DNA of 64,000 bases from Rhodococcus globerulus NBRC 14531 (GTDB lineage: Bacteria; Actinomycetota; Actinomycetes; Mycobacteriales; Mycobacteriaceae). The translations under genes were made by a program, and so were the position numbers. Location: assembly GCF_001894805.1 (NCBI RefSeq), contig NZ_BCWX01000003.1, positions 62,001 to 126,000 of the forward strand, in the 5' to 3' direction. Of the stretch, positions 13,810 through 26,356 are shown one piece after another (within the stretch, counting starts at the first letter, position 1; each line of letters starts with the position of its first letter). The notes under the pieces are model-generated. The model did not search any database. It was given only the letters and a program-made list of their open reading frames with translations, and had not been told where the DNA came from.

Positions 13810-14961
13810 TTAAACCTCTGCTTCCTTCTTTGCAGCGGCTTCCTTCTCGGCCTTCTGACGGGCGAGGTTTTCCTCGACCTCAGCGTGCCAGGCTTCGTTG
13901 GCCTTGGTGGTGTCCACTTCGAACTCGAAGCGCTGCGTCATCTTCTCGGTGACGTCGGCCTTGTCGACGTAGAACTGCTCGTACCAGCGTCGTAGCTGGT
14001 AGACGGGGCCGTCCTCCTCGCAGAGGAGTGGATTTTCGATCTTGGTCTTGTTCTTCCAGATCGCGACGTCCTGAAGGAATCCTTCGCTGATGCCCTCGGT
14101 GAACTTGCCGGCCAACTTGTCGGCCATTTCGTCGGAGACGCCCGTCGGCTTCTTGACCGTCACGCCCCACTGCAGCACGAATGAATCCGGGCTGATCGGG
14201 TAGTGGCAGTTGATCAGGACGCTTTCGACCTCGTATCCGCTGTAGCTGTTCCACAGAGGATTGACCATGTACGACGGTCCGTAATACGCAGCCTCTGAGC
14301 GAAGTAGCGTATCGCCGCCGTACTGGGACGCCATTCCGATGTCGGGACGGCCCGTGGTGTTGAGGTACTGAGTGGCGATCTCACCTTCGAAGACGTTCTT
14401 GAAGTACGTCGGGAAGGCGTAGTGGATGTAGTAGAAGTGCGCCATGTCCACGACGTTGTCGATTATCTCGCGGCAGTTGGAACCCTCGATGACCATGGAG
14501 TTCCAGGTCCAGTCTGTCCACTCGTCGCTGTACGCGCCCTCGATGCGAGGGATCACGATTTCCTCGGGCGGAGGATTGCCCTCTGGGTCGTTCCAGACGA
14601 AGAGCTGAGCGTTCTGTTCGAGTGTGTGCCACGCCCGGGTGCGGGCGAGCGGGGGCACGCGGCGGGCGTAGGGAATGCCGGTGCACTTTCCGTTTCCACC
14701 CCAGCGCCAGTCATGGAACGGGCACGCGATGGAATCGCCTTTGACCTCGCCTTGGGTGAGGTCACCGCCCATATGTCGGCAGTACCCGTCGAGGACTTTG
14801 ATATCGCCCTTGCTGTCGGCGAACACCACGAGCTTGGTACCGAAAGCCTCGATCGCGTGCGGTTTGCCGTCCTTGAAGGTCTTCAGAAGACCCAGGCAAT
14901 GCCATCCACGCGCGAACCGCGTCTGCACCGTTCCCACGTCGATCTCGCGAATCTGCGCCAT
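13810..14961 (-). CDS. kshA: 3-ketosteroid 9-alpha-hydroxylase, oxygenase subunit
   Basis: A 383-residue Rieske non-haem iron oxygenase. The Rieske ligands are visible as CRHMGG and CPFHDW (residues about 60-90), and the mononuclear-iron motif is in NVVDMAHFYYIHYAFP. The sequence closely resembles KshA, which hydroxylates C9 of androstadienedione; with KstD action this opens ring B to give the 3-HSA substrate of HsaAB. The reductase KshB is not in the window. The charged Lys/Ala/Glu-rich tail is typical of the rhodococcal forms. It diverges from hsaA across a region with two KstR-type boxes. Confidence 0.95.
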   Translation of the reverse strand: MAQIREIDVGTVQTRFARGWHCLGLLKTFKDGKPHAIEAFGTKLVVFADSKGDIKVLDGYCRHMGGDLTQGEVKGDSIACPFHDWRWGGNGKCTGIPYARRVPPLARTRAWHTLEQNAQLFVWNDPEGNPPPEEIVIPRIEGAYSDEWTDWTWNSMVIEGSNCREIIDNVVDMAHFYYIHYAFPTYFKNVFEGEIATQYLNTTGRPDIGMASQYGGDTLLRSEAAYYGPSYMVNPLWNSYSGYEVESVLINCHYPISPDSFVLQWGVTVKKPTGVSDEMADKLAGKFTEGISEGFLQDVAIWKNKTKIENPLLCEEDGPVYQLRRWYEQFYVDKADVTEKMTQRFEFEVDTTKANEAWHAEVEENLARQKAEKEAAAKKEAEV

Positions 14962-14990
14962 AGTGACCTCACATCCCTTCTAGCTGTTAA

Positions 14991-15004
14991 TAGAACACGT
15001 TATA
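14991..15004 (-). promoter_or_regulatory. KstR-type operator near kshA
   Basis: TAGAACACGTTATA matches the KstR consensus TnnAACnnGTTnnA at every fixed position. It lies 30 bases before the kshA start. KstR is the TetR-family repressor of the upper cholesterol regulon in rhodococci and mycobacteria. No kstR gene is in this window. Confidence 0.8.
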
Positions 15005-15093
15005 GAATGAACTCTGATTTCGCTAGATTTCGGAAGCACTTGTTACAGCATTGCGGCCCTCAATGACGCGATTTGCGACATCTCGACAGAAAA

Positions 15094-15107
15094 GAGAACG
15101 TGTTCTA
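15094..15107 (+). promoter_or_regulatory. KstR-type operator near hsaA
   Basis: GAGAACGTGTTCTA matches TnnAACnnGTTnnA except for the first base, and its core AGAACGTGTTCT is a perfect palindrome. It lies 50 bases before the preferred hsaA start. With the kshA box it would let KstR repress both divergent units. Confidence 0.8.
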
Positions 15108-15156
15108 GTCTCAAAGGTAAGTGAACTATCCGAGCGAGACAGACGGGAGCGTCGAA

Positions 15157-18681
<3,525 letters not shown>

Positions 18682-19559: not shown

Positions 19560-20834
19560 TCATACTCCGAATATCGCGAGGTGCAGGAAACCGGCCAACG
19601 AGCCGAGTACCGCTCCGTGGACGAACAACAACCATTCATCTTGTTTGACGGCAGATCTCAGCAGTTCGCTGAAGTCTTCCGGTGACAGTTTGTTCATTTG
19701 CGCCGTGACGAATATCCGGATTTTCTCGGACTGACTTTCGGCAAAAGCCGCGTCCTCGAATACTCGTGGAACGAGGTCGAGCACTTCGGTTGTCGCGAGG
19801 CTCGGCAGACGCTTGTAGCTTTGCGAGCCGACCGTCATTTTCACGACGGATCGTGCCCATCCGACGGCGTCGTCGACGGATTCACGAAGTACCTGATCGA
19901 GCATTCGGCGGGTTCGGTCCGAGCGTGGTCCTTCGAGAAGTTCTGTGCCGATGTTCTCGAGTGTGATGACGTGATCGGCGAGCGTTTTTGCGTACCCCTC
20001 GATGATCTCGGTGCGTCGTTTGAGGAAAAGACCTTGCCGCCACGGCACCCATCGGCTGGGCGCGATGGGCTCGAAGATCATTGTGATTCCGAGGTAGTTG
20101 ACGATGTAGCCGATGATGACGCCGCCGATGGGCAGGATCCACCAGTACGGCAGGAAGTGCAGTACGGCCACCAGGACAAACCCCATCGGAAACCCGAAGT
20201 AGAAACCGAAGTTCTGCATGAATCGCAGTTCTTTGTTTCCCATGGTCCGGAAAATGTCGTTGAGTAGTTTCGGGTGCGACGACAGGTACCGGATCACCAT
20301 GAGTTTGGCGTCGATGAATTCGTCGATGTTCTCTTCGATGCGGTCCGTGATGGTGCGGACGCTGGCCGGCAGATCTTCCTCGACCTTCCGGAAAACAGCT
20401 TCTTTCACCGGGTTCGGAAGGTTGTGCCAGAGCTGAGGATTCTCGGCGGTCATGATTCTGGTGACCACACCGCGGACTTCGCTTCGCGAGATGGTGACCA
20501 GATGTTCGGCGATGCTGTCCGGATCGAGTTCACGGTAGAAGTCGGCGATGCTGCCCACTTTTGCCAACGATTTGTCCACTGCGATCGACGCCATTTTCTC
20601 GGCCCGGGAGGGCACAATTCCTTGCCAACCGAAGCGGCCGTCGCTGGTGATCGCCGGGATTACCTGGACCCGGCGCGGGAGCAGTGGGAACAGGATCTTG
20701 AGGCCCGGAATTCTGACTCCGTGGAATTCGAGTGGGGCGAAGAGCATCAGAACGCCGGACCAATTGGTGATGTACCCGATGATTCCTGTGAACAAAGGAA
20801 TGGTGATCAACTGTTCGAGCAAGTGGTCCGGCAC
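19560..20834 (-). CDS. DUF445 family membrane protein
   Basis: A 424-residue protein. A first membrane segment near the N-terminus contains the GYITNWSGVLMLF motif. A large soluble helical region follows, then two membrane helices (about 219-257, FVLVAVLHFLPYWWILPIG and IGYIVNYLGITMIFEP), then another soluble stretch and a C-terminal hydrophobic segment. The repeated GYxxNxxGxxMxFxP pattern is typical of DUF445. The start is GTG after GAGGAGGA. Its molecular function is unknown. It abuts the Abi-alpha-like gene, so the two products may act together at the membrane. Confidence 0.85.
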   Translation of the reverse strand: MPDHLLEQLITIPLFTGIIGYITNWSGVLMLFAPLEFHGVRIPGLKILFPLLPRRVQVIPAITSDGRFGWQGIVPSRAEKMASIAVDKSLAKVGSIADFYRELDPDSIAEHLVTISRSEVRGVVTRIMTAENPQLWHNLPNPVKEAVFRKVEEDLPASVRTITDRIEENIDEFIDAKLMVIRYLSSHPKLLNDIFRTMGNKELRFMQNFGFYFGFPMGFVLVAVLHFLPYWWILPIGGVIIGYIVNYLGITMIFEPIAPSRWVPWRQGLFLKRRTEIIEGYAKTLADHVITLENIGTELLEGPRSDRTRRMLDQVLRESVDDAVGWARSVVKMTVGSQSYKRLPSLATTEVLDLVPRVFEDAAFAESQSEKIRIFVTAQMNKLSPEDFSELLRSAVKQDEWLLFVHGAVLGSLAGFLHLAIFGV

Positions 20835-21004
20835 CGTCGCCCATCCTCCTCATATCCGAGAACCTCACGTTCGGACATGATTGCCGAAACTTCGCTCTTC
20901 GTGGGTGTTTCCTTCGCTACTACTGCGCCTTCCCAGTTGCGTCAGCATAGATCCCCGGTAATCCGGGCCGTCGATGGGTCGGAAGTTAATGTAACCTGAC
21001 GTAC

Positions 21005-21061
21005 ATGGTCAGCTTTGCGCACAACACGACGACGCCGGTTTCCTTCCGGCGCATCGTTTAG
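21005..21061 (+). CDS. threonine-codon leader peptide (attenuator)
   Basis: An 18-codon frame encoding MVSFAHNTTTPVSFRRIV, with three consecutive ACG threonine codons at 21026-21034. No Shine-Dalgarno is visible. A TAACCT -10-like hexamer at 20992-20997 ends 7 bases before the ATG, so the transcript is probably leaderless. The Thr run is followed at once by a hairpin and then by a terminator before a threonyl-tRNA synthetase gene. That matches ribosome-mediated attenuation by charged tRNA-Thr. Confidence 0.75.
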   Translation: MVSFAHNTTTPVSFRRIV

Positions 21062-21120
21062 CACCTGCTGACCGAACCCTTTCCGCCCCGGGAGTTATCG
21101 CCCCGGGGTTGTTCTGTTTC
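21007..21120 (+). promoter_or_regulatory. transcription attenuator: Thr leader with terminator
   Basis: Pairing elements seen: GGTCAGC (21007-21013) with GCTGACC (21067-21073); CGCCGG (21033-21038) with CCGGCG (21046-21051), just after the Thr codons; and the terminator stem CCCCGGG (21086-21092) with CCCGGGG (21102-21108), followed by TTGTTCTGTTTC. Stalling on the Thr codons would disturb the early pairings and change terminator formation. The exact switching topology is inferred. Confidence 0.7.
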
Positions 21121-21165
21121 TTCGCTCCGATGCGCGACTCCCCTTGAACGATTTGGAGAGCTCTC

Positions 21166-22401
21166 ATGAGCGTTGACCACCGCGAACTCGGACGCGAGCT
21201 GGAACTTTTCACCACCACCCCCATCGTCGGAGCGGGCCTTCCGCTCTGGTTGCCGGACGGCGCGATCATCAGGAGCGAACTCGAGAAGTTCGCGGCCGAG
21301 CAAGCTGCTCGGTCCGGATGCCGCGGTGTCTACACCCCGGTGATGGCGAAGAAGGAGTTGTACGAGAGATCTGGGCATTGGTCCAAGTTCTCGGAAGACA
21401 TGTTCCCCGAAATGCAGATAGGTGGGGAATCATTTCTTCTTCGTCCTGCTAACTGTCCTCATCACGCACAGGTATTCGCCGCGCGCGGCCGTAGTTATCG
21501 CGAACTCCCTTTCCGCCTTCGCGAACTCGGCTCGATGTTCCGTAGCGAACTCTCCGGTGTTCTCAGCGGACTGAGCCGCGTCAGGCAGATCAATCTCGAC
21601 GACGCACACGTCTTCTGCACTCGTGACCAAGTTCGAGCCGAAGTGATCGTTGCGATCGACGCGATCGAGCACTGCTACTCGACTCTCGGGATTGCCGAAC
21701 GGGAATATCGGCTTTCGATCAGAGGGGCAGTGAGCGGAGGGGCAGCGGGGCAGTACCTCGGCACCGACGAACAGTGGGCCACCGCCGAGGATCAACTTCG
21801 CAGCGCACTGAATGCGCGCTCGATCGACTACGTGGAAGCCAAGGGAGAGGCTGCGTTCTACGGGCCCAAGATCGACGTCCAAGTGCGAGATGCGAACGGC
21901 CGCGAAGAAACACTCTCGACCGTCCAACTCGACTTCAACCAACCGGAGCGGTTCGGGCTCGAGTACACAGCGGAGGACGGAACCAAGGATCGTCCGGTGA
22001 TGATCCATCGAGGCTTGCTGGGTTCGATGGAACGTATGACCGCGCTCTTGATCGAAAGGTTCGAAGGTCGGATGCCGCCGTGGCTGGCGCCCAACCAGGT
22101 CTCGATCCTGCCCGTCGGCGACCGGCATCAGGATGCGGCCGAGCGTCTACGGGCAGATCTCGAGGCTCGCGATGTCCGCGTGGCCGTTGCGTCCGAAGGG
22201 TCGTTGGGACGCCGCATCCGCGAGGCTCGTAACCACCGGGATTCGTACGTCGCCGTGATCGGGGACAACGAAGTGCGGGGCGGCACCGTCGACATTCTGA
22301 TCCCGGCGCGGGATGAGCGGGCCGTCGTCGACGCGGGAGTGTTTGTCGATCAGGTGGTCGCGGACATCAACGAGCGTGCCCTGCTTCCGGCAGGGTTCTA
22401 G
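21166..22401 (+). CDS. minimal threonyl-tRNA synthetase paralogue (no TGS or editing domain)
   Basis: A 411-residue class II synthetase comprising the ThrRS catalytic core and anticodon-binding domain only. A full-length bacterial ThrRS is about 640-690 residues and carries N-terminal TGS and editing domains, both absent here. Zinc ligands are conserved: Cys in NCPHH, His in DDAHVFC and His in MIHRGLLGS. Motif 2 (FRSE...RVRQ) and motif 3 (GSMERMTALLIE) are present, followed by the anticodon-domain pattern WLAPNQVSILPVGD. Upstream lie a Thr leader peptide and terminator. It may be a starvation- or inhibitor-induced spare ThrRS; that role is inferred. It converges on marR with a 4-base overlap. 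Confidence 0.88.
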   Translation: MSVDHRELGRELELFTTTPIVGAGLPLWLPDGAIIRSELEKFAAEQAARSGCRGVYTPVMAKKELYERSGHWSKFSEDMFPEMQIGGESFLLRPANCPHHAQVFAARGRSYRELPFRLRELGSMFRSELSGVLSGLSRVRQINLDDAHVFCTRDQVRAEVIVAIDAIEHCYSTLGIAEREYRLSIRGAVSGGAAGQYLGTDEQWATAEDQLRSALNARSIDYVEAKGEAAFYGPKIDVQVRDANGREETLSTVQLDFNQPERFGLEYTAEDGTKDRPVMIHRGLLGSMERMTALLIERFEGRMPPWLAPNQVSILPVGDRHQDAAERLRADLEARDVRVAVASEGSLGRRIREARNHRDSYVAVIGDNEVRGGTVDILIPARDERAVVDAGVFVDQVVADINERALLPAGF

Positions 22402-22844
22402 CCGACGGGGAGTTCGTGGAGCGCCCGCACCAACGGCGCGAGTTCGGGTGTCTTGCATGCCTCGTCGAGTGCGGCTTCGAGGGTGGCGTCGTGCGTCGGC
22501 CGTGCGCTTTCGAGAAGCTCGCGGCCGGCCGGCGTCAACTCGGTGTAGATGCCTCGACGGTCGTCGGCGCACAGGATTCGGGTCAGTAGTCCACGATCTT
22601 CGAGACGGTTGACCAATCGCGTCGTGGCACTGCTGCTCAGCGCGGCAGCGCGAGCCAGCTGGGCCATGCGCATGTGCCAGCCGTCTTGGCGGCTCAACGC
22701 GTCGAGGACTGTGTATTCGACGACGGACAGTTTGTGCTCACGCTGGAGAGCGCGTTCCAATTCGGTGTCGAGGGCGCCGTGCAGCGCTGCGAGCGTGCGC
22801 CACCCTTGCGAACGGATTTCGACGGCGTCGTCGGCGATCCCCAT
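22398..22844 (-). CDS. MarR family transcriptional regulator
   Basis: A 148-residue winged-helix regulator. The recognition region MAQLARAAALSSSATTRLVNRLEDRGLLTR and the wing segment CADDRRGIYTELT are typical of MarR. The ATG at 22844 follows AAGGAGA. It diverges from an MFS efflux gene across a region with two GCGCGCRTGCAACTA direct repeats, so it probably represses that transporter and itself. Ligand unknown. Confidence 0.92.
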   Translation of the reverse strand: MGIADDAVEIRSQGWRTLAALHGALDTELERALQREHKLSVVEYTVLDALSRQDGWHMRMAQLARAAALSSSATTRLVNRLEDRGLLTRILCADDRRGIYTELTPAGRELLESARPTHDATLEAALDEACKTPELAPLVRALHELPVG

Positions 22845-22899
22845 GTGATTCTCCTTGTCCGATTCCTGCCGCTCCAGGTTACCAGCTTGCGCATGTAGC

Positions 22900-22935
22900 G
22901 CGCGCATGCAACTATTTATAGCGCGCGTGCAACTA
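22900..22935. promoter_or_regulatory. putative MarR operator (two 15-bp direct repeats)
   Basis: GCGCGCATGCAACTA (22900-22914) and GCGCGCGTGCAACTA (22921-22935) differ by one base. They are 21 bp apart start to start, about two helical turns. They lie midway between the divergent marR and MFS genes. Binding by the adjacent MarR is inferred from position. Confidence 0.6.
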
Positions 22936-22987
22936 CTGCACACGCCCGCTAACGGCTTACGCGTAAATCTGTGAAAGGAACATCGAG

Positions 22988-24169
22988 ATGCCATTGGGTC
23001 TCATTGCCCTCGCTATGGGCGGGTTCGGGATCGGCCTCACCGAATTTGTCATCATGGGCCTGCTGCCCGAGGTCTCCGCCGATTTCGAGGTCACCGAAGC
23101 CGTAGCGGGCTACCTGATCTCCGGCTACGCACTGTCCGTCGCGATCGGTGCAATTCTGGTGACCGCGGCCGTCATCCGGTTCGAGCGCAAGAAGGTCCTA
23201 CTCTCGCTGATGGTGCTGTTCATCATCGGCAACCTGATGTCTGCGCTGGCCCCCTCGTACGAGGTGATGATGGGTGGGCGCATCGTTGCGGCCCTGTGCC
23301 ACGGCGCGTTCTTCGGCATCGGATCGGTGGTCGCCGCCGGAATGGTCGCACCGGACAAGCGTGCAGGTGCCATCGCAATGATGTTCTCCGGGTTGACCAT
23401 TGCCAATGTTCTCGGCGTTCCGTTCGGCACGATGCTCGGCCAACAGTTCGGATGGCGCTCGACCTTCTGGGCGATCACCGTCATCGGCATTGTCGCGCTG
23501 ATCGGGATCGCGGCTCTGGTGCCTACGACGCCGGCACCAACGGCGGGCGGCGGCCTGCGCGGCGAACTCGGAGCCTTCCGCAACAAACAGGTGTGGCTCT
23601 CGATCGCGATCACGATTCTCGGCTACGGCGGAATGTTCGGCGCGTTCACGTACATCGCGTTCACTCTCACCGAGGTGAGTGGCTTTGCAGCGTCCAGTGT
23701 TCCGTGGTTGCTGATCCTTTTCGGTTCCGGTCTGTTTGTCGGCAACGTCCTCGGTGGGAAGGCTGCCGACCGTTCGCTGACGAAGGCGCTGGTCTGGATT
23801 CTCGCGATCTTGACCGTCGTTCTGATCGTGTTCGCGGCGACTGCAGAGAGCAAGGTCATGACCGTGATCTCACTGTTCTTCATGGGCGCCTTCGGTTTTG
23901 CGACGGTACCAGGGTTGCAGATGCGGATCATGAATTACGCGTCGGAGGCGCCGACTATGGCATCGGGCGCCAATATCGCCGCTTTCAATGTCGGAAATGC
24001 ATTGGGCGCGTGGCTCGGTGGTCTCACCATTGCCGCCGGGCTCGGCTTCAACTCCCCGATCTGGATGGGAGCCGCCGTCACCGTAGTCGGTTTGATGGTG
24101 CTGCTCCTCGCGTCGTCGATGGACAGGTCGGAGAAGGCTCCCGAGCGGGACGGCGTACTGGTCGGGTAG
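22988..24169 (+). CDS. MFS transporter (DHA1-type drug efflux)
   Basis: A 393-residue major facilitator with twelve predicted membrane helices and little loop sequence. The N-terminal GLTEFVIMGLLPEV and the SGYALSVAIGA motif in helix 2 are characteristic of DHA1 drug:H+ antiporters of the Cml/AraJ type. It starts with ATG after GAAAGGAA. It is paired with a divergent MarR repressor, which suggests substrate-induced efflux. Substrates cannot be predicted. Confidence 0.9.
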   Translation: MPLGLIALAMGGFGIGLTEFVIMGLLPEVSADFEVTEAVAGYLISGYALSVAIGAILVTAAVIRFERKKVLLSLMVLFIIGNLMSALAPSYEVMMGGRIVAALCHGAFFGIGSVVAAGMVAPDKRAGAIAMMFSGLTIANVLGVPFGTMLGQQFGWRSTFWAITVIGIVALIGIAALVPTTPAPTAGGGLRGELGAFRNKQVWLSIAITILGYGGMFGAFTYIAFTLTEVSGFAASSVPWLLILFGSGLFVGNVLGGKAADRSLTKALVWILAILTVVLIVFAATAESKVMTVISLFFMGAFGFATVPGLQMRIMNYASEAPTMASGANIAAFNVGNALGAWLGGLTIAAGLGFNSPIWMGAAVTVVGLMVLLLASSMDRSEKAPERDGVLVG

Positions 24170-24292: not shown

Positions 24293-25339
24293 TCAGAACT
24301 TGATCAGATCGCCCACGAAGATCTGGTCGGGATCGGTGATCCACGCATTCATGGCCCACACCTCTTGCCAATTCTTCCCTCTTACCGAAGCGAGGTCGAA
24401 CAGCGTATCGCCTTCGGACACGGTCACCGTGTCGTCGACTGCCGACGTGGCCGGCTCTGGTGCCGGAGCATTCAACGCGGGTGCGAACGTCGGTCCGGGA
24501 GTGACGCTAGCCCCGGTATCGCACGCGCCTGTCGACTTCAGGAAGGCGACGGGATCGACGGCGCCGCCGCTGTGAATGCGCAGATGCAGATGCGGGCCGG
24601 TCGAGCTGCCGGTATTGCCCGTGGCACCGATTTGGTCGCCGGCCTCGACGTGAGCGCCTTCACCGACCCACGTTTCGGAGAGGTGGCCCATCTGGATCTG
24701 CTCGCCGGTATCGGCTTCGAGCTGGATGTAGGTTCCGTATCCGCCGGGGTCATATGGTCCGGCAACCGAGATCGTGCCCGAGGTCGGGGCATGGAGGACC
24801 GTTCCGACGTTGACCGCGAAGTCCGCTCCATCGTGTCCGGCGTGGAACCCCTGCGAGAGCACCCCATCGACGGGCCATTCCCAGCTGCAGCTGTTACCAG
24901 CATGAAGAGGGGCTACGTGGATGGCTTCTTCGGCAGAAGGCAGTGTCGATGAGATCACGTTGGCTGAACCAGGGGTGACTCCACCCCAGCCGAGGTGTGT
25001 GCCACATACCGGCCACGCACCGATGCCCTGAGCGTCGAGTGTTGCCTCTGCTGCTGCGACTTGATCCGCGACCGACGCCATGTCAGCACGGGCCGGTGCA
25101 CCGGCTGGCTTGTGGGCATCCCACGTCGACTGCGTGAACTGCAGTCCGCCGTAGAACCCGTTGCCCGTGTTGATGCTCCAGTTTCCGGAACTCTCGCACA
25201 TGGCCACTTGCGACCAGTCGTGTGCGCTGGCTACGCCCGTGTTTGCGAAGGTGCCGATGGCTGTCAGAGCCCCTGCTCCGGCAGCGAGTGTGATGAATCG
25301 TGTGGCGTGAGAACGATGGTGTTTCCTGTGTTTTCCCAT
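24293..25339 (-). CDS. secreted Rpf-domain / M23 peptidase / LysM cell-wall hydrolase
   Basis: A 348-residue exported protein with three modules. The basic N-terminus (MGKHRKHHRSH) and hydrophobic core form a signal peptide ending near VASA. Residues about 40-115 are a resuscitation-promoting-factor transglycosylase domain (DWSQVAMCESSGNW with its catalytic Glu, then GFYGGLQFTQSTW). Residues about 150-270 are an M23 metallopeptidase with zinc ligands HDGAD and HLHLRIH. The C-terminus holds one LysM (VSEGDTLFDLA). It should cut both glycan and stem peptide. The ATG at 25339 is chosen for AAGGAAAAG upstream. Confidence 0.9.
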   Translation of the reverse strand: MGKHRKHHRSHATRFITLAAGAGALTAIGTFANTGVASAHDWSQVAMCESSGNWSINTGNGFYGGLQFTQSTWDAHKPAGAPARADMASVADQVAAAEATLDAQGIGAWPVCGTHLGWGGVTPGSANVISSTLPSAEEAIHVAPLHAGNSCSWEWPVDGVLSQGFHAGHDGADFAVNVGTVLHAPTSGTISVAGPYDPGGYGTYIQLEADTGEQIQMGHLSETWVGEGAHVEAGDQIGATGNTGSSTGPHLHLRIHSGGAVDPVAFLKSTGACDTGASVTPGPTFAPALNAPAPEPATSAVDDTVTVSEGDTLFDLASVRGKNWQEVWAMNAWITDPDQIFVGDLIKF

Positions 25340-26356
25340 GATCTTTTCCTTGATCGGTGTCGGCAATCTCGCGGCACGCAGCGGTGATCAACTGCTGAGC
25401 AGCGTGGTGTACGAGATCGCCCATGCTGGAAGGCGATTGAAGATGAGTTGACAACAAGTGCGCCAACAGTTCTCGCTATCCGAGGACAATTATTTGCATT
25501 GACCGAATTGGTCAGGCCAATTTCTTTGTTACAGAGCGCCTCTCGAGTGAAGAGAGAGCGTGCTGATAGTTCCTTCCGGTTTCATGGTCACGATTTGTGA
25601 GTCACGCCTAGGTTGTTGCCTCGCCCACATGCGTACAACGGCCCAATTACCCGGTGGCATACCTATTTCGCGGATTACGCCAATTTTTGACAAGTCGAAC
25701 CAAGCCGACCGGTACCACGTTTTTCAGGGCAACTGGTCGATGAACTCCACGTTGGCCGATTGGGTGGCCTTGCTGGTATTGCCGGGTATTCAACTGTGCC
25801 AGAAGGATTCTGGGTGGACCATCATGTCCTGGGAAAGTCAGCAGCGGGTCTGGCGCGATCGGGCTGAGGAAACGGACTGACCGAGTTGCCACTGGTTCAT
25901 GGCGCAGAAACTATTGATCTCTCACGCGGGATTATTGTCTTCGGCCAGTTCAGGGGCGGGTGAGAAATCATTTTCGTAGTGCGAGCGGCGTCGCTTGGCG
26001 GGGTAGGTCTACGGCAAAGCTACACGTCAAACAGGTTGGACCCTCGGCATTGATTGCGAAGGTAGTGACGCGCGACGACCCGAAAACAGGTACCCGAATG
26101 GGTCATTCGACCCGTGTGAGGAGAAACGCCGGATGCCAGAGTGGAGCACACGGATTCACCCGAAGCTGTTCCACAATAGAAAACTTGCGACACGCCTTGC
26201 GCTCCCAGTGATCGATTGGCGCAACCCTTGTGAGGGATCTGTGTCGCACCCTGAGGGTCGCAGTCTGCGCCCGGGGATGAGCCCTCCTGCGGAGCCCGAC
26301 AAAGGTGGCACCGCAGGAGGGCATTCAAACGCGTTCGCGCAATGAGGCAGACGCCG
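25340..26356. other. 1-kb intergenic region without a convincing gene
   Basis: I find no supported protein or tRNA here. It has a TTGGCCTGACCAA inverted repeat near 25508-25520 in the leader of the wall-hydrolase gene. I looked for the ydaO (c-di-AMP) riboswitch often found before rpf genes and did not recognise it. Frames of 106 codons (plus, 25560-25880) and 81 codons (minus, 25647-25892) lack ribosome sites and family features. A stable hairpin closes the region at 26281-26322. Confidence 0.5.
26281..26322 (-). terminator. hairpin downstream of the ADC-like gene
   Basis: GCCCTCCTGCGG (26281-26292) and CCGCAGGAGGGC (26311-26322) form a perfect 12-bp stem with an 18-base loop, 34 bases past the minus-strand stop. 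There is no clear U tract, so intrinsic termination is likely but not certain. Confidence 0.55.

Follow-up and report, generated by a model that had tools for sequence, protein, structure and literature searches.

Introduction

An auxiliary, antibiotic-resistant tryptophanyl-tRNA synthetase, trpRS1 of Streptomyces coelicolor, is reportedly under ribosome-mediated attenuation, and it is the closest working precedent for the locus described here, in which a leader open reading frame (ORF) with three threonine codons stands before the gene of a short threonyl-tRNA synthetase (ThrRS) in Rhodococcus globerulus NBRC 14531. The locus lies in a stretch of 64,000 nucleotides (contig NZ_BCWX01000003.1, positions 62,001–126,000 of the forward strand), hereafter the window, and all positions below are those of the window. 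In both systems a spare synthetase would be controlled through its own leader; trpRS1 concerns tryptophan and indolmycin and has been studied by experiment, whereas the present locus concerns threonine, its enzyme has lost the editing domains, and it possibly carries a Shine-Dalgarno (SD) switch. The resistance of trpRS1 is tabulated in a review of duplicated synthetases (PMC9437257 Table 1), the accessible text of which gives for ThrRS only T2 and ThrRS-L (PMC9437257).

A member of the same kind is already in print. In Streptomyces lividans TK24 thrL (SLIV_19412) is leaderless, encodes the peptide MKRVRPFLETTPGFVPAR and lies upstream of thrS (SLIV_19410), with termination given as unclear; leaders before alaS and trpS are tabulated in the same source (PMC8079986). 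It shares with the window a leaderless threonine leader before a ThrRS gene, but the accessible text of PMC8079986 mentions no loss of editing domains, no wider conservation and no SD pairing. Two of the loci analysed below (L176 and L177) have a leader peptide identical to MKRVRPFLETTPGFVPAR directly before a short ThrRS, an exact match from which SLIV_19410 would also be the short form. The initial annotation of the window knew of no description of this arrangement, a statement that the identity of these peptides overturns.

A second, inducible ThrRS with impaired proofreading is also known from Anabaena, where T2 is induced by low zinc and the housekeeping enzyme edits in trans (PMC4787780). 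T2 differs from the enzyme of the window in that its editing domain is present but degenerate and its induction is by low zinc, and no threonine leader is mentioned in the text available (PMC4787780). Among Actinobacteria, classical attenuators were described before trpS and leuS, with no threonine element found in the accessible part of that survey, and the ileS T-boxes have an SD-sequestering hairpin with an anti-sequestor (PMC1262725). In the locus reported here, a leader-peptide attenuator and an anti-SD element seem to be combined.

A threonine-codon leader precedes the short ThrRS gene

The leader ORF (21005–21061, forward strand, as are all features below unless stated; ATG at 21005, stop codon TAG at 21059–21061) encodes the peptide MVSFAHNTTTPVSFRRIV in 18 codons, and three successive ACG threonine codons occupy 21026–21034. 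A −10 hexamer TAACCT, fitting TAnnnT (20992–20997), ends seven bases before the ATG, a spacing that suggests a leaderless transcript, with its start in this genome at the leader ATG or beside it. The 18-codon frame and the leaderless design had both been noticed in the initial annotation, and the sequence bears them out.

Related loci were collected by protein searches in the genus (ThrRS match in 27/28 genomes at E≤1e-60, including ten full-coverage short matches and one fragment), the family (30/301 genomes at E≤1e-105) and the class (147/393 genomes at E≤1e-92, a cut that also admits full-length enzymes). The first set comprised 60 short-ThrRS loci, 59 intact and one fragment (L019), and about 30 more short-type class matches lie outside it; L033 was excluded as too short. 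The later set consisted of the 18 actinomycete loci that ranked in the top 80 of a later named search, from Streptomyces, Kitasatospora, Nocardia, Amycolatopsis, Micromonospora, Plantactinospora, Actinocrispum, Antribacter and Rhodococcus, and these may share species with genomes of the first set. The best named locus, from Rhodococcus sp. (L086), has a ThrRS 63% identical to that of the window but a leader resembling that of a sister genus in the set. In a pattern search of the class, 83/296 genomes matched, but leader matches and chance matches in coding DNA were mixed and no count was drawn; a separate pattern search matched 2/295 Streptomyces-type genomes (the genus of G590), at L176 and L177.

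A leader with threonine codons was found in all 60 loci of the first set and in 17 of the 18 later ones, and its presence in 60/60 loci is more than chance would give. Conservation of the threonine codons and stems in related genomes, which the initial annotation had named as a check of its proposal, was thus observed. The single miss (L089) is without the leader ORF but keeps a matching GC hairpin; its protein is among the 77 short enzymes compared below. Each leader ORF of the first set contains ACGACGCCGG, and TAnnnT stands 6–8 nt before the chosen start codon in 60/60, a choice that itself demanded TAnnnT 4–9 nt upstream. The fragment locus (L019, genome G012) has an intact leader and an open frame of 192 amino acids, its gene is probably broken, and a full-length thrS is present in that genome; its leader was counted among the 60 and its protein left out (the short gene matched over residues 1–147 only). 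At another locus (L016, genome G003) the leader is kept although the upstream DNA looks unrelated to that of other members of the genus, which suggests that the leader travelled together with its gene.

The peptide motif Thr-Thr-Thr is present in 58/60 leaders of the first set, with Ala-Thr-Thr and Ile-Thr-Thr in one each, and in 17/17 later leaders. The second and third threonine codons sit inside a conserved hairpin motif, as would be expected if the leader sensed translation-targeting antibiotics generally by ribosome stalling and its threonine codons were incidental to the hairpin. The first threonine codon, however, is outside the invariant motif, encodes threonine in 58/60 loci and is ACC or ACT in seven of those, so the residue is kept more than the base. 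On this evidence and that of the promoter box considered below, we regard such general sensing as improbable.

Alternative pairings of the leader RNA

Element 0, GGTCAGC at the start of the ORF (21007–21013), is the exact complement of GCTGACC after the stop codon (21067–21073). Hairpin 1:2 (21033–21051; CGCCGG at 21033–21038, CCGGCG at 21046–21051) overlaps the threonine codons with its 5′ side and folds with its neighbours at −11.5 kcal/mol; both arms are invariant in an alignment of 57 sequences (A4), that is, conserved with no covariation. Element 2, CTTCCGG (21043–21049), is the predicted antiterminator strand and pairs with element 3, CCGGGAG (21088–21094), which is common to the antiterminator 2:3 and the terminator 3:4. 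The terminator region (21086–21122) has the stem CCCCGGG/CCCGGGG (21086–21092/21102–21108), folds at −18.0 kcal/mol and is followed by the U-rich tail TTGTTCTGTTTCTT (21109–21122). Terminator and antiterminator are therefore mutually exclusive by sequence. Element 3L, GGGAGTTATCGC (21090–21101), is the 5′ arm and loop of the terminator and can pair with element 5, GCGCGACTCCCC (21132–21143), which is partly complementary also to the SD region of the ThrRS gene and possibly masks its GGAG (element 6, 21155–21158). The hairpin after the threonine codons, the GGTCAGC/GCTGACC pairing and the GC-rich stem with its U-rich tract had been described in the initial annotation and were all recovered; the possible SD switch formed by 3L:5 and 5:6 is an addition to it.

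The leader region 21005–21165 folds better than 200/200 dinucleotide shuffles (−62 versus a mean of −47.5 kcal/mol, z −4.0). A simple terminator scan did not list the 3:4 hairpin, the likely reason being a loop of 9 where the scan allows at most 8. A GC-rich hairpin was found at the place of the terminator in the relatives, by a script that always reports the best hairpin (that of L080 is misplaced). Between 18000 and 24000 of the window no T-box was matched up to E=1 and no other relevant Rfam family was found, and a T-box or other Rfam family was rejected for this region.

Whether selection maintains the pairings was examined by comparing the pairing energy of the segments of each species with that of segments swapped between species, in 59 loci of the first set (L080 left out) and in 17 later loci. 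The 2:3 pairing had −12.78 with own segments versus −11.80 when swapped, which 0/2000 swaps reached (1/1000 in a second run), and 7/1000 swaps did so in the later loci. The corresponding values were −14.93 versus −12.06 for 3L:5 and −17.31 versus −14.62 for 5:6, each with 0/2000 swaps in the first set and 0/1000 in the later loci. For element 0 and the segment that follows the hairpin (0:2b) the values were 0/1000 and 97/1000, respectively, and the control pairings were flat (3L:6, 746/2000; 2:5, 647/2000; 0:3, 182/1000; 0:5, 957/1000). In an alignment of 34 loci from which the window was excluded, 96.7% of the 3L:5 cells were paired versus at most 58.1% when slid; four pairs were changed on both sides (1/500 shuffles) with 12 double-sided cells (0/500), and pair types were no more numerous than in shuffles (326/500). 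For 5:6, 86.0% of cells were paired versus 63.9% at best when slid, and pairs changed on both sides were matched by 18/500 shuffles. Element 5 has two possible partners, the SD region and the 3L stretch of the terminator, and we infer that the leader may couple termination to SD masking.

Predicted control by threonyl-tRNA

The ORF, the promoter-like spacing, the hairpins, the alternative complementarities with their conservation and the loss of domains from the enzyme are seen in the sequence. From these we propose, with a probability of roughly 0.74, that expression of an auxiliary ThrRS is controlled here by ribosome-mediated attenuation in response to charged tRNA-Thr, as the initial annotation had suggested from the threonine codons. 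The reading is favoured because own segments exceed swapped ones for 2:3, 3L:5 and 5:6 while 3L:6 and 2:5 stay flat, because the leader design recurs in 60/60 and 17/18 loci and a second ThrRS of full-length type is found in 59/59 searched relatives (one match partial) and in the genome of the window, and because the exact S. lividans thrL peptide precedes a short ThrRS, with trpRS1 as a precedent.

Transcription would start at or beside the leader ATG. When threonyl-tRNA is plentiful, the ribosome would reach the stop codon and cover element 2, so that the terminator 3:4 could form and most transcripts would end, and on read-through transcripts element 5 would be free to mask the SD site. When it is short, the ribosome would stall at the three ACG codons and cover strand 1, leaving element 2 free to pair with element 3; RNA polymerase would then read on, and 3L, released from the terminator, would capture element 5 and thereby free the SD site. 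The product, a ThrRS without editing domains, would restore threonyl-tRNA. The transcription start, the stalling, the order of folding, the termination, the masking and the charging of tRNA-Thr by the enzyme are all predictions of this kind. Threonine starvation or inhibition of the housekeeping ThrRS is the likely occasion, to which antibiotic stress may be added through a WblC/WhiB7-like box in many relatives of the Streptomyces type.

Several observations weigh against this proposal. The terminator forms in all ten leaders that were folded (of the 60) even when the first stretch of the leader is deleted, so antitermination would have to be kinetic; only 3:4 appears in the minimum-energy folds. 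Elements 2 and 5 compete for an overlapping stretch of element 3, which makes the hand-over between them a guess. A good U-tract is missing in many Streptomyces-type loci. The 2:4 pairing is also mildly above its swaps (27/2000), and swaps and shuffles alike leave the relatedness between loci in place. Against column shuffles 5:6 is not clearly better, as 74/500 reach it in cells paired and 55/500 in covariation score, one slid version of it has more double-sided cells (6 versus 3), and in the window the pairing is weak at −11.5 kcal/mol.

Two regulatory styles among the loci

Twenty loci, the window included, were grouped as Rhodococcus-type after the sequences had been seen. The larger clade to which they belong in the tree also takes in L057, L058 and L087; L057 and L058 were counted with the others for the promoter box, and the U-tract comparison was made without L057, L058 and L080. 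Downstream of the hairpin, the 20 Rhodococcus-type loci have a T-rich tail (mean 7.2 of 12 nt, range 6–9), and their 5:6 pairing is the weaker one (−15.0 kcal/mol); in the 37 other loci the tail is poorer (mean 4.0, range 0–6) and 5:6 stronger (−18.4 kcal/mol). An intrinsic terminator with a U-tract is accordingly found in the window and the Rhodococcus-type loci. These good tails and weak 5:6 pairings, and the failure of 5:6 in the column-shuffle control, would fit a plain attenuator that regulates termination alone, with elements 5 and 6 kept for other reasons such as mRNA stability. We consider this unlikely, as 3L:5 and 5:6 exceed their swaps in both sets, which 3L:6 and 2:5 do not, and as 3L:5 with its double-sided changes is kept in loci with poor U-tracts.

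The two groups also differ upstream of the leader. The box GAAAWY was found in none of the 20 Rhodococcus-type loci, and no WhiB7 box was found in the window. Among the other 40 loci GAAA stands at the expected place in 25 and the full GAAAWY in 12; the 17 later loci gave seven and four. The strict GAAAWY at exactly −45/−46 from the leader start occurs in 12/60 loci versus 55/5354 background windows, and its position fits the WblC boxes that sit 3 nt upstream of −35 elements (PMC7157823). This box speaks for the general sensing of antibiotics discussed above, and its absence from the Rhodococcus-type loci, the window among them, speaks against it. The S. coelicolor WblC regulon names thrS2, alaS2, lysS and trpS (PMC7157823), of which thrS2 would be the short enzyme of this family; with the alaS and trpS leaders of S. 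lividans (PMC8079986) this list overlaps by gene name. A ThrRS gene, SCO3778, is among the sigma-E sites found only under ethanol stress (PMC10771440). Taken together, the branch of the window would rely on termination, and the Streptomyces-type branch more on SD masking plus WblC.

The short ThrRS is a separate enzyme without editing domains

The short ThrRS (21166–22401) has 411 amino acids and consists of the catalytic and anticodon-binding domains only. It scores 452.1 bits with TIGR00418 (curated cut-off 383.65) over positions 171–563 of 565, and a match that starts at 171 means that the N-terminal part is absent. Of the Pfam domains at E≤0.001 it has PF00587 and PF03129 only; TGS and editing (SAD) domains were not found in it, and the two SAD domains of the genome are in the full-length ThrRS and in a 905-amino acid frame taken to be AlaRS. 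Zinc ligands C97, H148 and H281 were located by motif. The residues equivalent to C334, H385, H511, R363 and R520 (E. coli numbering, used below) are kept in 77/77 short enzymes, the first three being zinc ligands and the last two motif residues. Arg363, Asp383, Tyr462 and Gly463 equivalents are kept in 77/77 as well. The initial annotation had described a ThrRS of 411 residues lacking TGS and editing domains with zinc ligands and motifs 2/3 intact, and the profiles and residue comparison agree. Lost proofreading would follow from the loss of domains, with mischarging of serine as the prediction. Aeropyrum pernix ThrRS-1 (3a31/3a32) and yeast mitochondrial ThrRS (3ugq), which we take to be without the N-terminal editing domain, are far more distant (174.5 and 226.2 bits, respectively, versus 383.2 for the full-length enzyme of S. 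aureus).

A full-length thrS, which the initial annotation had proposed to look for, lies elsewhere in the 6.7-Mb genome (G000:C2:772239, the window being on G000:C3). The possibility that the housekeeping thrS is absent was therefore rejected, and the short gene is a second copy beside a housekeeping enzyme, as in auxiliary synthetases of the trpRS1 type. Among 59 searched relatives the full-length ThrRS matched from profile position 1 in 58; the match in G023 was partial (256–562), and G596 has two. The full-length enzyme of R. globerulus keeps HSAAH and DLCRGPH, which fit the ThrRS editing motifs HxxxH and DxCRGPH (PMC4787780), and it could edit in trans for the short enzyme, by analogy with Anabaena. 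The full-length ThrRS of L001 has a long stretch before DLCRGPH; high-G+C Gram-positives often have insertions there, which may impair editing (PMC4787780). A zinc-stress backup, for which the low-zinc induction of the proofreading-impaired T2 offers a model (PMC4787780), is highly improbable for the short enzyme, which keeps its zinc ligands in all 77 cases (though T2 uses zinc too) and stands behind a threonine-codon leader.

In an unrooted tree, which excludes a recent copy and not an old one, 30/30 sampled short ThrRS fell on one side of a branch with 100/100 support, apart from 18 sampled actinomycete full-length enzymes, and a recent copy of the housekeeping gene was rejected. Identity to the Bacillota full-length enzymes is 42–49% and to the own housekeeping enzyme 43%, so that the short ThrRS is at least as near to Bacillota. 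In one locus (L171, genome G370) a run of in-frame GGERL-type repeats was seen just before the LRPSL motif of the short ThrRS frame.

Active-site residues and inhibitors

The residues of 77 short ThrRS were compared with those of 92 full-length ThrRS (49 actinomycete). The position of Met332 has Met in 92/92 full-length enzymes, whereas 27 short enzymes have Ala there and 50 have Ser. At the position of Leu489, Leu is present in 81/92 full-length enzymes; 73 short enzymes have Gln and four have Lys. In the window these are A95, two residues before C97, and Q259. The altered active site and the separate clade go beyond the initial annotation.

Both changes touch on inhibitors. Borrelidin contacts human Met411, taken here as the equivalent of E. 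coli Met332, and human Leu567; its Ki is raised 300- to 1,000-fold by mutations at His309 and Leu489 of the E. coli enzyme, and the self-resistant ThrRS of S. parvulus has Thr at the Leu567 place (PMC4389257). These data, the two changes in 77/77 short enzymes, the naming of thrS2 in the WblC regulon (PMC7157823) and the analogy with trpRS1 and indolmycin would fit a paralogue favoured by selection chiefly for its insensitivity to borrelidin or other natural inhibitors of ThrRS. Such a role is compatible with control by threonyl-tRNA, and we consider it less likely than not. Human Leu567Arg and Leu567Trp lose activity (PMC4389257), so a polar residue at the Leu489 place could also mean a weaker or changed enzyme; His309 and Gly463 are kept, and Gln at 489 also occurs in 8/49 actinomycete full-length enzymes. 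For borrelidin an altered sensitivity is plausible; for obafluorin it is unsupported. Met332 shifts to admit obafluorin (PMC9880928), resistance to it is due to Gly463Ser and not Leu489Met (PMC11252418), and an ObaO-type Gly463Ser resistance was rejected from the conserved Gly463.

A wider idea, which we judge rather unlikely, is that the class has an innate defence against ThrRS poisons, in which an old editing-less clade with a remodelled threonine and inhibitor pocket would be silenced by one RNA hub. The terminator arm and loop would then act as a mimic of the SD site, and a single stall at threonine codons would both cancel termination and uncover the start site.

Genes around the locus

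The frames at 13810–18681 look like a steroid-degradation cluster, by eye presumably a Rieske-type oxygenase, a flavin monooxygenase, a hydrolase, an extradiol dioxygenase and a flavin reductase. A membrane-protein-like frame (19560–20834, reverse strand) is divergent from the leader, and TTGCGTCAGCATAGA at about 20937–20951, conserved in close relatives, may be part of its promoter. The ThrRS gene is directly followed (22398–24169) by a MarR-like regulator (reverse strand) and an MFS-like transporter (forward strand), named by eye from their translations, and one frame at 24293–25366 (reverse strand) looks by eye like a transglycosylase/Rpf-type domain with an M23 peptidase and a LysM domain.

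Discussion

The kind of arrangement and one member of it are already in print; what is new is the proposed terminator/SD hub, together with the two styles of regulation and the signature in the active site. An account of the wider family, of the SD pairing or of the loss of editing was not found in the accessible open-licence PMC literature. One element complementary to both the terminator and the SD region could explain how leaders without a U-tract, such as S. lividans thrL, regulate. The effect of the two active-site changes on drug tolerance and on the choice between threonine and serine becomes testable. If the proposal is true, a spare and probably less accurate ThrRS stands under the control of threonyl-tRNA in many actinomycetes, which would link the fidelity of translation to survival under stress.

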